Assembly: GCF_900110435.1 (NCBI RefSeq)
Contig: NZ_FODT01000002.1
Span: forward strand, 186,001-250,000
Source: Rhodopseudomonas pseudopalustris
GTDB lineage: Bacteria; Pseudomonadota; Alphaproteobacteria; Rhizobiales; Xanthobacteraceae
Direction of reading: 5' to 3'
DNA: 64,000 nt
Made by a program: the position numbers and the translations under genes. The notes beneath the pieces are model-generated. The model searched no databases. It saw only the letters and a list, made by a program, of their open reading frames with translations, and was not told where the DNA came from. Positions 6,089 through 64,000 of the stretch are shown piece after piece. Each line of letters opens with the position of its first letter. The stretch's first letter is position 1.

Positions 6089-6817
6089 ATGACCACGGAG
6101 ATCGCACGGGTTCAGGGCGCGCTCGACTCGGCCGGCGAACGCGCGAGGTCGCTGCAGACCGTCTATGTCTATCAGGCCCCGGTGCGGCTGTGGCACTGGG
6201 TCAACGCGCTGCTGATCGTGGTGCTGTGCGTCACCGGCTATTTCATCGGCACGCCGTTGCCGTCGGTGCCGGGCGAGGCCTCCGCTTCGTTTCAGATGGG
6301 CTATATCCGCTTCGCCCATTTCGCGGCCGGCCAGACGCTGATCGTGTTCTTCCTGCTGCGGGTGTACTGGGCGTTCGTCGGCAACAAATATTCCAAGCAG
6401 ATCTTCTGGCTGCCGATCACCAACAAGACCTGGTGGTGGGGCATGTTGTACGAGCTGAAATGGTATCTGTTCCTGGTGCGCGATCCCAAAAAATACATCG
6501 GCCACAACCCGCTGGCGCATGTCGCGATGTTCTCCTTCATGGTGTTCATGGTGCTGATGATTCTCAGCGGCATGGCGCTGTACTCCGAAGGGCACGGCAT
6601 CGACAGCTGGCAATACAAGCTGTTCGGCTTCATGTTCGCGATTTTCCCGAATGGCCAGACCCTGCATACGCTGCATCATCTCGGGATGTGGGCGATCGTG
6701 GTGTTCGTCGTCGTTCACATCTACGCCGCGGTGCGCGAGGACATCCTCAGCCGCCAGAGCATGATCTCGTCGATCGTGTCCGGCGAGCGCCTGTTCCGCG
6801 ACGATCTGCCGGATTAG
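6089..6817 (+). CDS. hupC: HupC, Ni/Fe-hydrogenase b-type cytochrome subunit
   Basis: This 242-residue diheme cytochrome b carries electrons from HupS to the quinone pool. Four hydrophobic segments are visible (about residues 36-57, 75-97, 145-167 and 195-213). Histidines in the APVRLWHWVNA motif and in the later helices (HHLGMWA, HIYAAVRED) are candidate haem ligands. Length and motif order match HupC/HyaC. A strong Shine-Dalgarno (CGGAGGAGGAG) precedes ATG 6089, and the gap to hupL is 22 bp. The next gene, hupD, is separated by a long palindrome. Confidence 0.95.
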   Translation: MTTEIARVQGALDSAGERARSLQTVYVYQAPVRLWHWVNALLIVVLCVTGYFIGTPLPSVPGEASASFQMGYIRFAHFAAGQTLIVFFLLRVYWAFVGNKYSKQIFWLPITNKTWWWGMLYELKWYLFLVRDPKKYIGHNPLAHVAMFSFMVFMVLMILSGMALYSEGHGIDSWQYKLFGFMFAIFPNGQTLHTLHHLGMWAIVVFVVVHIYAAVREDILSRQSMISSIVSGERLFRDDLPD

Positions 6818-6861
6818 AGCGAAGAGACTGGCCGTGACGGTCGCGCCGCCTCACCAGTTGC

Positions 6862-7027
6862 GAGCTCTTCACCCTCCCCTGGAGGGGGAGGGTCGCTCGC
6901 GCAGCGAGCGGGGTGGGGTGGCGAAGAGTTCATCCGCCGTGCCCGCGGCTCACCCCACCCCGGTGGGCACCGCGCTACGCGCGCTACCCGCCGACCCTCC
7001 CCCTCCAGGGGAGGGTGAAGAGAGCTC
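6862..7027. repeat. Large paired palindrome (REP-like) inside the hup operon
   Basis: The left arm starts at about 6862 (GAGCTCTTCACCCTCCCC...) and the right arm ends at about 7027. The arms are inverted copies of about 34 bp that differ by one 2-base insertion. Each arm is itself a hairpin around CCTGGAGG or CCTCCAGG. The 100-bp centre holds smaller stems. Elements of the same build occur at 26,885, 31,450 and 62,001. In mRNA this would be a very stable structure between hupC and hupD, possibly protecting hupSLC mRNA or reducing read-through. Confidence 0.8.
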
Positions 7028-7061
7028 TGCTGCAATTGTCTTCATTGAGGACGTCTACGCC

Positions 7062-7673
7062 ATGACCGTGCATCCGACGCCATCGCCATCCCCCCGCGTC
7101 CTCGTGCTCGGCATCGGCAACATCCTGTGGGCCGACGAAGGGTTTGGCGTGCGCGCGGTGGAGGCATTCCATCGCGGCTTCACCGCGCCGGACAACGTCA
7201 CGGTGCTCGATGGCGGCACCCAGGGCCTCTATCTCGTGAACCTGCTGCAGGAGCATGATCATCTGCTGGTGTTCGATGCGATCGACTACGGCTTGCCGCC
7301 CGGGACGCTGAAGCGCGTCGATGGCGACGAGGTGCCGAAATTCACCGGCGCCAAGAAGATGAGCCTGCATCAGACCGGCTTTCAGGAGGTGCTGAGCGCG
7401 GCGGACTTGCTCGACGCCGCGCCAAAACGGCTGGCGCTGATCGGCTGCCAGCCGGTGGATCTCGAGGATTGGGGCGGCGCGTTGACGGCGCCGGTGAACG
7501 CGCGGATCGCCGACGCGCTGACGCTGGCGTGCGACATTCTTGCCGAATGGGGCGTGACGCTTGCGCGGCGAGCGGTTCCGCTCGATCCTGCCGAGGGCCT
7601 GCTCGGCCACGACATCGATCAGCTAAACTATGAACGGCACGCCGATCCGCCGCGCGCCGCAGCCAATGAATGA
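7062..7673 (+). CDS. hupD: HupD, hydrogenase maturation endopeptidase
   Basis: This 203-residue nickel-dependent protease cleaves the C-terminal peptide of HupL after the metal centre is complete. The M52-family opening VLVLGIGNILWADEGFGVRAVE contains the conserved Glu and Asp that bind the nickel of the substrate; the third ligand is expected in the MSLHQTG histidine. I chose ATG 7062 because the protein homology begins there; the frame is open upstream through the palindrome, which should not be coding. Expression probably depends on read-through from the hupS promoter. Confidence 0.93.
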   Translation: MTVHPTPSPSPRVLVLGIGNILWADEGFGVRAVEAFHRGFTAPDNVTVLDGGTQGLYLVNLLQEHDHLLVFDAIDYGLPPGTLKRVDGDEVPKFTGAKKMSLHQTGFQEVLSAADLLDAAPKRLALIGCQPVDLEDWGGALTAPVNARIADALTLACDILAEWGVTLARRAVPLDPAEGLLGHDIDQLNYERHADPPRAAANE

Positions 7674-26884: not shown

Positions 26885-27020
26885 CTCCCTCTCCCGCTTG
26901 CGGGAGAGGGTTGGGGCGAGGGCGAGCCGAGCACTGACGCTCCGATTCGCGGAGAGCCTTTCCCCCACCCGCCGCGCTCCGCGCGTCGACCTCCCCCGCA
27001 AGCGGGAGAGGTTGCGCAGC
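26885..27020. repeat. REP-like paired palindrome between modD and acyl-CoA ligase gene
   Basis: Two hairpins around CCCGCTTGCGGG (26,893) and CCCGCAAGCGGG (26,996) lie about 100 bp apart in inverted orientation, with short conserved outer sequence (CCTCTCCCGCTTGCGGG in both). It is the same architecture as at 6,862 and 62,001 and lies at a convergent gene junction, where it could act as a transcription end. Confidence 0.7.
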
Positions 27021-31448: not shown

Positions 31449-31545
31449 TTACCCTCCCCCTCAAGGGGAGGGTGAAGAGGGCCAGGTGCAAGAGACCAAG
31501 ATATTCCATCGACGATCGCCTCACCCCTGAGAGGGGAGGGTGAGA
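31449..31545. repeat. REP-like palindrome pair between smc and rsm22
   Basis: TACCCTCCCCCTCAAGGGGA (from 31450) forms one hairpin and TCACCCCTGAGAGGGGAGGG (from 31520) another. Both belong to the same CCCTCCCC/GGGGAGGG family as the element in the hup operon. It could act as a terminator for smc. Confidence 0.65.
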
Positions 31546-61053: not shown

Positions 61054-61986
61054 ATGGACCCGACGCCTCCGCACATGCGCCCGGAACGCTCGTTCCAGGG
61101 CCTGATCCTGACGCTGCAGCGTTTCTGGGCCGATTACGGCTGCGTGATCCTGCAGCCCTACGACATGGAGGTCGGCGCCGGCACGTTCCATCCGGCGACC
61201 ACGCTGCGGGCGCTCGGCCCGAAACGCTGGAACGCCGCCTATGTGCAGCCGTCGCGGCGTCCGAAGGACGGCCGCTATGGCGAGAACCCGAACCGGCTGC
61301 AGCATTATTACCAGTTCCAGGTGATCCTGAAGCCGTCGCCGCCGGACCTGCAGGATCTCTATCTCAAATCGCTGGCCGCGATCGGCGTCGATACCGCGCT
61401 GCACGACGTGCGCTTCGTCGAGGACGATTGGGAGAGCCCGACGCTCGGCGCCTGGGGACTCGGCTGGGAGTGCTGGTGCGACGGCATGGAAGTCAGCCAG
61501 TTCACCTATTTCCAGCAGGTCGCGGGCGTCGAATGCGCCCCGGTCGCCGGCGAACTGACTTACGGCCTCGAGCGGCTGGCGATGTATGTGCAGGGCATCG
61601 ACCGGGTCTACGACCTCAACTTCAACGGCCGCGACGGCGCCGACAAAGTCACCTATGGCGACGTCTTCCTGCAGGCCGAGAAGGAATATTCGAAGCACAA
61701 TTTCGAAGTCGCCGACACCGAGATGCTGTTCGAACAGTTCAAGATGGCCGAAGCCGCCTGCAAGAAATATCTCGACGCCGGCTGGGTAAGCGACAAGCGC
61801 GAAGCGCACGCGATGGCGCTGCCGGCCTACGACCAGTGCATCAAGGCCAGCCACGTCTTCAACCTGCTCGACGCCCGCGGCGTGATCTCGGTGACCGAAC
61901 GCCAAAGCTACATCCTGCGCGTCCGCGAACTGGCCAAAGCCTGCGGCGAAGCCTGGTTGCACACGGAAGCGGGCGGGGCGGACTAA
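61054..61986 (+). CDS. glyQ: Glycyl-tRNA synthetase alpha subunit
   Basis: This 310-residue class II subunit has [42 protein letters not shown] at the start and then [37 protein letters not shown] (motif 2). [14 protein letters not shown] is motif 3. It activates glycine in the alpha2beta2 enzyme. Its partner glyS begins 522 bp later; the two are usually adjacent, and an inserted DUF559 element separates them here. Confidence 0.97.
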
Positions 61987-62000
61987 TAGGAAGCGCTCCT

Positions 62001-62041
62001 GCTCCCCTCCCCCTTGCGGGGAGGGGTCGGGGGTGGGGGTC
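62001..62041. repeat. Left 41-bp inverted repeat of the DUF559 element
   Basis: The 41 bases (GCTCCCCTCCCCCTTGCGGG..., ending GGGGGTC) are an exact inverse of 62412-62452. The repeat contains a hairpin CCCCTCCCCCTTGCGGGGAGGGG. It starts 15 bp after the glyQ stop. Confidence 0.9.
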
Positions 62042-62046
62042 CACGG

Positions 62047-62508
62047 ATGCAGACTTCGATGTTTGGATCGCCAGCGATGACCACTGATCGCCAGCGTTAC
62101 TTCGCGCACACGATGCGCCAGAACCCGACGGACGCGGAGCGCTTGCTGTGGCAGCGCCTGCGGCACGACGTCGTGCTGTCCAACTCACACTTCCGCCGGC
62201 AGGCCGCGATCGGGCCCTACATCGTCGATTTTGCCAGCCGCGGCGCCAGGCTGGTGATCGAACTTGATGGCGGTCAGCATGATGAGCAGCACGTCGCCGA
62301 CGAAGCGCGCAGTCGCTTCATCGAAGCCGAGGGCTATCGCGTCCTTCGCTTCTGGAACAACGATGTGCTCGGCAACCTCGATGGTGTCCTCGCCGAGATT
62401 CAGTCCGCGTTGACCCCCACCCCCGACCCCTCCCCGCAAGGGGGAGGGGAGCCAAAACCGCGCGCTCCCCGCAAGCCGCGCCGTTCTCGCACCAGGATTT
62501 CAAACTAA
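62047..62508 (+). CDS. DUF559 endonuclease-domain protein inserted between glyQ and glyS
   Basis: This 153-residue protein belongs to the DUF559 family, distantly related to Vsr and PD-(D/E)xK nucleases. RHDVVLSNSHFRRQAAIGPYIVDFASRGARLVIELDGGQH carries the catalytic Asp (VDF) and Glu-x-Asp (ELDGGQH). EGYRVLRFWNNDVLGN is the other family mark. The last 35 residues (from TPTPDPSPQGGGE) are read through the right inverted repeat and are low complexity. ATG 62047 or 62077 may be the start. Its stop TAA is followed at once by the glyS ATG. Function unknown. Confidence 0.85.
   Translation: MQTSMFGSPAMTTDRQRYFAHTMRQNPTDAERLLWQRLRHDVVLSNSHFRRQAAIGPYIVDFASRGARLVIELDGGQHDEQHVADEARSRFIEAEGYRVLRFWNNDVLGNLDGVLAEIQSALTPTPDPSPQGGGEPKPRAPRKPRRSRTRISN
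62412..62452. repeat. Right 41-bp inverted repeat of the DUF559 element
   Basis: Perfect inverse of 62001-62041, lying inside the 3' end of the DUF559 reading frame. The two repeats span 452 bp in total. Confidence 0.9.
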
Positions 62509-64000
62509 ATGCCTGACCTCCTTCTCGAACTGTTCTCCGAAGAAATCCCGGCGCGGATGCAGGCCAAGGCTGCTGACGATCTGCGCCGCATGGTGACCGA
62601 AAAGCTGGTCGCCGAGGGCCTCGTCTATGAGGGCGCCAAGGCGTTCGCGACGCCGCGGCGGCTGGCGTTGACGGTGCATGGCATTCCGGCGCGGCAGCCG
62701 GATCTGAAGGACGAGCGCAAGGGGCCGAAGGTCGGCGCGCCGGACGCCGCCGTGCAGGGCTTTCTGAAAGCCACCGGGCTCGCCTCGCTCGACGAGGCCA
62801 AGATCCAGCGCGATCCGAAGAAGGGGGATTTCTACATCGCGCTGATCGAGAAGCCGGGCAAGCCTGCGATCGATGTGCTCGCCGACATCCTGCCGGTGAT
62901 CGTGCGCACCTTCCCGTGGCCGAAATCGATGCGCTGGGGCGAGCGTTCCGCCAAGCCCGGCGCGCTGCAATGGGTGCGGCCGCTGCATTCGATCGTCGCG
63001 ACCTTCGGCATCGACACCGAGGAACCCGAGGTGGTGGCGTTCGACGTCAGCGGCATCAAGGCCGGGCAGGTGACGCGCGGCCATCGCTTCATGGCCCCGG
63101 ACGAGATCAGTGTGCGCCGCTTCGAGGACTACGAGGCGAAGCTCTATGCCGCCAAGGTCGTGCTCGATCCGCAGCGCCGCAAGGACATCATTCTGGCGGA
63201 TGCGAAAACCCTGGCGCAGGCGCAGAACTACGAACTGGTCGAGGATCAGGGACTGCTCGACGAAGTCTCCGGGCTGGTCGAATGGCCGGTTGCGCTGATG
63301 GGCTCGTTCGACGCGGACTTCCTGTCGATCCCCGGCGAAGTGATCCGCGCCACCATCCGCGCCAACCAGAAGTGCTTCGTGGTCGCCGATCCCGCGACGG
63401 CTAAGCTGGCCAACAAATTCATCCTCACATCGAATATCGAAGCCAGCGACGGCGGCGCCGCGATCACCGCCGGCAACGAGCGTGTGATCCGCGCGCGATT
63501 GAGCGACGCGAAGTTCTTCTACGACACCGATCTGAAGACCAAGCTGGAAGACCGGCTGCCGAAATTCGATCAGATCGTGTTCCACGAAAAGCTCGGCACG
63601 CAGGCAGTGCGCATTAAACGTATCAAGAGCTTCGCTGCAAAGATCGCGCCGCTGGTCGGCGCCGATGTTGAGAAGGCGAAACGCGCTGGTGAGTTGTGCA
63701 AGGCCGATTTGCTGACTGAAATGGTCGGCGAATTCCCCGAACTGCAAGGCCTGATGGGCAAGTACTATGCGCTGGCGCAGGGTGAAGACCTGAGCGTCGC
63801 CGCCGCCTGCGAAGAGCACTACAAGCCGCAGGGCCCGACCGACCGCGTCCCCACCGATTCTGTCTCGATAGCGGTGGCCTTGGCGGACAAGTTGGACACG
63901 CTGGTCGGGTTCTGGGCGATCGACGAGAAGCCGACGGGCAGCAAGGACCCGTTTGCGTTGCGACGCGCGGCGCTGGGGGTGATCAGGCTAGTGCTAGAGA
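62509..64000 (+). CDS. glyS: Glycyl-tRNA synthetase beta subunit (5' part)
   Basis: The first 497 codons are visible; the frame runs off the window. [25 protein letters not shown] and [13 protein letters not shown] at the start are the GlyS signature; [12 protein letters not shown] and [15 protein letters not shown] follow. It forms the alpha2beta2 enzyme with GlyQ and binds tRNA. The ATG at 62509 directly touches the DUF559 stop codon, so translation is probably coupled. Confidence 0.96.

Follow-up and report, generated by a model that had tools for sequence, protein, structure and literature searches.

In a 64,000-nucleotide (nt) stretch of the Rhodopseudomonas pseudopalustris genome (contig NZ_FODT01000002.1, positions 186,001 to 250,000; referred to as the window), a gene for a DUF559 protein is located between glyQ and glyS and is framed by two inverted palindromic repeats. 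The left neighbor, glyQ, spans positions 61054–61986 of the + strand (PF02091, E 9e-142) and is followed by the left repeat at 62001–62045 (+ strand) and the right repeat at 62408–62452 (− strand). The two 45-nt arms are 98% complementary, and their outer 41 nt are exactly complementary when compared by eye, resulting in a unit of 452 bp; two matches of this pattern are found within the window, compared with a mean of 0.00 in 100 shuffles. The DUF559 gene (+ strand, 153 amino acids) runs from the ATG at 62047, directly after the left repeat, to the TAA ending at 62508, and scores 124.9 bits against PF04480 (cut-off 20.6, E 1.6e-36). Its frame reads through the right repeat as TPTPDPSPQGGGE, followed by a basic tail (62408–62508 for repeat and tail together), such that the repeat encodes part of the C terminus. 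The translated repeat gives a PTPDPSPQGGGE stretch ahead of this tail. The stop codon abuts the ATG of glyS at 62509, a + strand gene that occupies the window to its end at 64000, continues beyond it, and is named from synteny and from a sequence-only reading of the window that preceded this analysis. That reading described a 452-bp unit in which a DUF559 gene lies between inverted ends of 41 bp that match exactly, and this unit is borne out; it also took the end of the unit as the upstream partner of glyS.

The repeats are built on a shared plan of three blocks: a pyrimidine arm (a), the arm complementary to it (a′), and, in third place, a purine block (b′). In the left repeat, with boundaries placed by eye, the hairpin arms a and a′ lie at 62004–62012 and 62018–62026, and the third strand b′, GGGGGTGGGGG, lies at 62029–62039 and is directed into the gene. 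In the right repeat, b lies at 62414–62424 and the hairpin at 62427–62449. The a-a′-b′ order of the window repeat is, by eye, that of the BoxC/PIT/TM repeats, and its sequence places the window repeat among the variants of the BoxC/PIT intrastrand triplex motif. As described in PMC4666352, BoxC/PIT repeats have been known since the 1990s and are tied to genome instability, and triplex formation in vitro has been reported for BoxC/PIT/TM-ECO, which has 23 copies in Escherichia coli MG1655 and the consensus CCCTCNCCC N3-6 GGGNGAGGG N3 GGGNGAGGG. The window copy does not fit this published consensus and is a CCCCTCCCC variant; a close-to-consensus pattern is found at 34 sites elsewhere in the same genome, and many repeats at the DUF559 loci described below look like the E. 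coli consensus by eye. Similar to the repeats described here, BoxC/PIT/TM-ECO repeats have the a-a′-b′ order and occur as inverted pairs (PMC4666352). The main difference is that the authors of this 2015 survey state that they never found genetic-mobility activities around those repeats (PMC4666352), whereas here the repeats bracket a nuclease gene. The forms added here to BoxC/PIT/TM are the CCCCTCCCC variant, a type with a second hairpin, and cyanobacterial and Deinococcus forms.

An AlphaFold (AF2) model of the window DUF559 protein has a mean predicted local distance difference test (pLDDT) score of 82.7. In a Foldseek search, this model matches the DUF559-like structure 3hrl, followed by the catalytic domain of the homing endonuclease I-Bth0305I (3r3p, E 1.4e-4), with the Vsr chains 1vsr/1cw0 as weaker matches in rows 14 and 18. 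A profile search concurs (3hrl, 6e-36; 3r3p, 0.0013), and residues D61, E72, D74, H78, and D85, among others, are invariant in a 41-row DUF559 alignment. At E 0.001 the bracketed gene matches only DUF559 and one nuclease profile below its cut-off, with no Y1 (HUH) domain. The unit enzyme is therefore not a repetitive extragenic palindrome (REP)-associated tyrosine transposase (RAYT), since the Y1 domain that defines RAYTs is absent. The E. coli DUF559 protein YcjD had been placed in the PD-(D/E)XK superfamily by 2005, as reported in PMC1189080. The DUF559 protein VsrA of Caulobacter is described as triggering the SOS response in the absence of a cytosine methylase (PMC12907096), suggesting that one member of the DUF559 family, at the least, acts on DNA in the cell.

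Palindromes around DUF559 genes

To assess bracketing, the 400 bp preceding the DUF559 domain were locally aligned with the reverse-complemented 400 bp that follow the domain, with a threshold score of at least 34. The first sample comprised 30 loci from a search of the host family and 29 from a search of the phylum, together with 40 further rows from each list in order, own-family rows being left out of the added phylum rows; 143 loci were fetched, and one was too short, leaving 142. Inverted palindromes bracket DUF559 in 107 of these 142 loci, compared with 3 of 274 shifted windows of the same loci (own family, 60/69; phylum, 44/69; own genome, 3/4). In a second collection of 80 named loci picked by protein motif alone, 73 were testable and 60 were bracketed; without locus L271, an artefact of a run of N, the count is 59/72, compared with 0/141 shifted windows. 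The association of DUF559 genes with such repeats in relatives, on which the sequence-only reading depended, is thus found in both collections. Among control loci, glyQ is bracketed in 1 of 27 cases. The strongest Y1_Tnp loci, IS200-like by our own reading, are bracketed in 0 of 21 cases and hence provide no RAYT positive control.

Across the pooled 222 loci, in which two pairs represent the same stretch twice (L088/L267 and L120/L262), a hairpin with a pyrimidine arm was searched for within 300 bp of the gene. It is present upstream in 198 loci, downstream in 200, and on both sides in 179, compared with 19 of 424 single control windows. The third strand b′ points into the gene in 135 loci upstream (outward in 37, tied in 26) and in 135 loci downstream (outward in 41, tied in 24). 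The spacing between a′ and b′ is either 1–3 nt (type 1) or mostly 18–30 nt (type 2, in which a second hairpin is frequent by eye).

Relatives of the window protein, as found by tblastn, occur in 44 of 72,556 plasmid records, some of which are chromosome-sized, and in 3 of 50,697 phage records; with so few such records, ordinary horizontal cargo is not favored as a description of these genes. Six extra loci outside both sets were picked among 30 of the 44 plasmid-collection records, and three of the six, two from Deinococcus and one from Pseudanabaena, have clear brackets (scores 97, 114, and 126). The Synechocystis, PCC 7002, and Neisseria loci score 20, 29, and 32, under threshold, with palindromes nearby nonetheless. 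In Deinococcus psychrotolerans the bracketed DUF559 gene is located within a paa operon, and in Synechocystis the DUF559 gene lies beside the BREX gene pglX.

The host genome has four DUF559 matches, three of which have short frames (143–200 amino acids) and lie between inverted palindromes of three differing sequences. In the genus, glyQ is followed by a DUF559 gene in 12 of 15 other genomes. In seven of these the protein is of type A, with 85–90% identity to that of the window (two of the seven contigs stop before glyS), and in five it is of type B, with 48–50% identity to that of the window; each type has a palindrome of its own. Of the remaining three genomes, two have other sequence and no DUF559 match in the slot, and one contig is too short to judge. 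The glyQ-DUF559-glyS order is therefore not ancient and fixed: the slot holds a type A unit, a type B unit, or neither. By eye, a solo type-B palindrome lies upstream in four type-A slots and a solo type-A palindrome lies in two type-B slots, suggesting that DUF559 units have displaced, or become nested within, one another.

The palindrome variant tracks the DUF559 protein rather than the host genome. Protein and repeat similarity are correlated (Mantel r 0.49, 0/2000; 72/74 loci of the own genome and own family). Between different genomes, similar DUF559 proteins have similar repeats (median 0.55, 88 pairs; p 1e-13), while the repeats of proteins less than 65% identical within one genome do not resemble each other more closely (median 0.27, 33 pairs) than repeats of different genomes do (0.26, 2433 pairs). 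For 105 of the 222 loci with an unambiguous repeat type (109 unassigned loci, 7 mixed loci, and one with a stop were left out), repeat type clusters on the DUF559 tree, with 19 changes compared with 28.9 in shuffles and 0/500 shuffles as low, on a tree with many weak forks in which such clustering can arise from near-copies alone.

At the level of whole genomes, 398 genomes of the phylum were compared, of which 145 have a DUF559 match and 110 a strong one (E < 1e-10). Copies of the pattern CCCTCNCCC-N(2-14)-GGGNGAGGG number at least five in 78 of the 110 genomes with strong DUF559 and in 16 of the 288 others (Fisher odds ratio 41, p 3e-40), and the association is retained within families (Mantel-Haenszel odds ratio 27, p 8e-15, over the 15 families having both kinds of genome). 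Presence of Y1_Tnp is not linked to this motif (43/94 vs 169/304, odds ratio 0.67).

Gene-free doublets and solo palindromes

Palindromes of this superfamily are also found in the window without a gene, and none of these features is assigned a strand. A type-B doublet at 6869–7018 resembles, at its ends, the DUF559-B units found in sister species and belongs to a dispersed family. A pair at 26887–27011 is of the variant that also brackets another DUF559 gene of the same genome (L002), and a solo type-B palindrome lies at 31449–31475. The sequence-only reading assigned the glyQ-glyS repeats to the same class as the paired palindromes of the window; this holds at the level of the superfamily, and the pairs themselves (6870–7015 and 26887–27011) are other sequence variants. 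At the site of window position 31449, compared in 13 genomes, two have a full doublet at the same junction, two have a doublet slightly further on, two (one of them the window genome) have the solo palindrome, and seven have other sequence. Doublet and solo alleles thus occur at one site. In orthologues of window 6300–7600 (L336–L338 and L340–L342), a different palindromic repeat, of the CGTCATTGCGAG...CTCGCAATGAC type, fills this intergenic slot in several sister genomes.

The spacing of inward pairs was determined in those of 16 genomes with fully listed sites, nine for type A and seven for type B. Inward pairs closer than 1 kb are spaced by either 118–145 bp (44 pairs) or 425–450 bp (7 pairs), and type-A pairs are also found outward (four) and on the same strand (three). 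An alignment of 17 type-B doublets from the complete genome G012 shows a fixed-length element of about 155 bp, the left end of which closely matches, by eye, the DUF559-B unit of that genome. Many of these doublets (L351–L367) follow a common stretch (about GATCGCATCTGAAAGTTCGCGG), itself frequently preceded by a CTCCCCGCGCGCGGGG-like hairpin; this second repeat is perhaps a target or an outer layer. In two draft genomes, G008 and G013, a doublet copy lies at one end of many contigs, and the doublet family is therefore likely undercounted in drafts.

Some copies of the whole unit are similar only within its limits. Two DUF559 units of G104 show 93.6% identity over 455 bp, a stretch that begins with the left palindrome and ends ~24 nt beyond the right one; their flanks are dissimilar. 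Similarity confined to the unit is also observed for L159/L179, within one genome, and for L168/L189 and L097/L301, between genomes. Most other listed unit pairs have longer common flanks, as expected of orthologues.

In E. coli, the ycjD region (at least 80% covered) is found in 3362 of 5426 genomes. TM-ECO number 9 lies 168 bp past the 3′ end of ycjD, and a decayed copy overlaps the end of the gene. The interval between fabI and sapF is polymorphic, with ycjD in most genomes and an efflux operon in the three ycjD-less strains examined. The efflux operon at this site is named eef in PMC12817139. With this operon at the site, the ycjD-less strains do not represent clean excision.

A proposed nuclease partner for a palindrome family

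DUF559 genes lie between palindromes, pair with cognate variants of them, and co-occur with them at the level of genomes; fixed-length doublets are dispersed, some unit copies are confined to the bracketed stretch, and one site has both doublet and solo alleles. Together, these observations show that a nuclease family is physically and evolutionarily tied to a genome-dispersed palindrome family. We infer that the DUF559 protein mobilizes or maintains these palindromes. Our preferred reading, to which we assign a probability of roughly 65%, is that DUF559 is the dedicated nuclease partner of the triplex-palindrome superfamily (BoxC/PIT/TM and variants), most likely acting on its cognate palindrome and spreading it. 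The gene between two inverted cognate palindromes would be an autonomous-like unit of about 450 bp, and the gene-free doublets (about 125–155 bp) and solo palindromes would be its non-autonomous or collapsed derivatives. The nuclease most likely recognizes the cognate palindrome, perhaps as a single-strand hairpin or triplex at replication forks, and would nick or cut the palindrome or a target; repair from another copy could then spread the unit or doublet in the fashion of a homing endonuclease or a RAYT. Cleavage, its substrate, and its role as the driver of copying are proposed here from comparisons of sequences.

Several observations weigh against this reading. At threshold, 35 of the 142 loci lack a bracket, among them the fourth DUF559 gene of the host genome, which has a 447-amino-acid frame (L004). 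The score is also passed by 316 of 2130 cross-locus pairings (15%) and by 64 of 142 direct (non-inverted) pairings within a locus, since all the repeats belong to one superfamily and their arms are self-like. When only near-perfect third strands are considered, the inward bias of b′ is weaker (45 vs 23 upstream, 62 vs 21 downstream). The genome-level association is incomplete, with at least five motifs in the 16 of 288 genomes noted above and fewer than five in 32 of the 110 with strong DUF559. Type-A palindromes are present in G009 and G014 even though the glyQ-glyS slot of these genomes holds no DUF559 gene; the type-B palindrome is absent from both. The E. coli gene ycjD is flanked by the motif on a single side, none being seen on the other, and the nearer copy is decayed. 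Of the 17 G012 doublets, 12 share a left flank with another copy (23/136 pairs; 0/136 shuffled) and 6 share a right flank (6/136 pairs; 0/136 shuffled), indicating that a second repeat contains or adjoins many of the copies, which therefore do not count as separate, clean insertions; the pattern could arise if doublets insert into other palindromes or belong to a composite element of larger size. Exact excision points and target duplications, which the sequence-only reading proposed to look for, were not found: no target-site duplication is seen by eye in the 17 doublets or the printed unit pairs, and no clean empty site is present in sister genomes at the window doublet or solo-palindrome sites, where other repeats fill the slot in several genomes and make clean insertion points unreadable.

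Twelve genomes have at least 10 motifs and no strong DUF559 match, two of them with a weak match, and four genomes (G264, G422, G284, and G180) contain 68–162 motif copies with no strong match. Relic populations, missed genes, and another partner are candidate readings for these four.

The main rival, which we consider unlikely, is one of maintenance, in which DUF559 resolves or trims the triplex or hairpin at its cognate repeats, such that repeats persist only alongside the enzyme and spread through replication slippage and recombination. The co-occurrence and cognate data also fit this explanation, as do the Vsr-like fold and the induction of SOS by Caulobacter VsrA when a cytosine methylase is lacking, as described in PMC12907096; however, maintenance alone leaves the fixed-length doublets at many sites and the unit-limited copies unexplained. 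Somewhat less probable again, gene and doublets may be passengers moved by another enzyme or by palindrome recombination, with cognate matching a matter of mere linkage. Linkage alone would yield that matching, the hallmarks of transposition that were looked for were not seen, and the many doublets that share flanks may ride in a larger repeat. Passenger status fits poorly, however, with the presence of DUF559 in motif-rich genomes across families and with the rarity of bracketing at the glyQ control loci. The seven long inward pairs all contain a DUF559 unit as well, but each is the unit at glyQ-glyS, one orthologous slot in seven genomes, so their DUF559 content counts little. It is improbable that DUF559 is a plain very-short-patch repair enzyme paired with cytosine methylases, with the palindromes as unrelated terminators or insertion hot spots: the work on VsrA (PMC12907096) and the weak fold match to Vsr (1vsr/1cw0) point in this direction, but the palindrome variant tracks the protein, both flanks are affected and in inverted orientation, and the Vsr chains rank as low as they do in the Foldseek list.

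The arrangement that favors DUF559 as a dedicated partner is reminiscent of the REP/REPIN-RAYT system, with a nuclease gene between inverted palindromes, gene-free doublets, and cognate palindrome variants. The RAYT (TnpA-REP) features used in this comparison are general background, supplemented by abstracts. The parallel with REP elements and RAYTs drawn in the sequence-only reading stands for these three features, with the flanks of the doublets partly shared. The differences lie in the enzyme, which is PD-(D/E)xK/Vsr-like DUF559 here and a Y1/HUH tyrosine transposase in RAYT, and in the palindromes, which here are C/T-G/A triplex motifs. The logic of DUF559 and its palindromes thus resembles that of REPIN-RAYT and, by logic alone, would be a variant of that kind; the partnership that we infer by analogy is REPIN/RAYT-like, with an unrelated nuclease as its enzyme. 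The enzyme also resembles the homing endonuclease I-Bth0305I, a member of the EDxHD family, in the fold of the catalytic domain (3r3p), but no intron or intein is seen here, and the gene is palindrome-framed and has many gene-free relatives. Vsr belongs to the same superfamily, and Caulobacter VsrA contains DUF559; the words "palindrom" and "inverted repeat" are absent from the main text of the VsrA report (PMC12907096). Among titles and abstracts of the open-access literature, none was found that links DUF559 to palindromes. We know of no element-enzyme pair, from that literature or otherwise, that has either the enzyme family or the DNA element in common with the one described here.

A broader proposal, which we hold tentatively and place just short of an even chance, is that the BoxC/triplex palindromes, found in more than 260 bacterial genomes, are a new kind of mobile element, spread by a stand-alone DUF559 nuclease that would cut folded hairpin or triplex DNA and home by repair. 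Such elements would be convergent with REPIN-RAYT, with a Vsr/homing-type nuclease in place of the tyrosine transposase, and would be present in Pseudomonadota, Cyanobacteriota, and Deinococcota. With a cognate nuclease family linked to them, the question of how BoxC/PIT repeats spread gains a testable enzyme, a large DUF family gains a proposed function, and REPIN-RAYT gains an independent comparison on how tiny elements persist in bacterial genomes.
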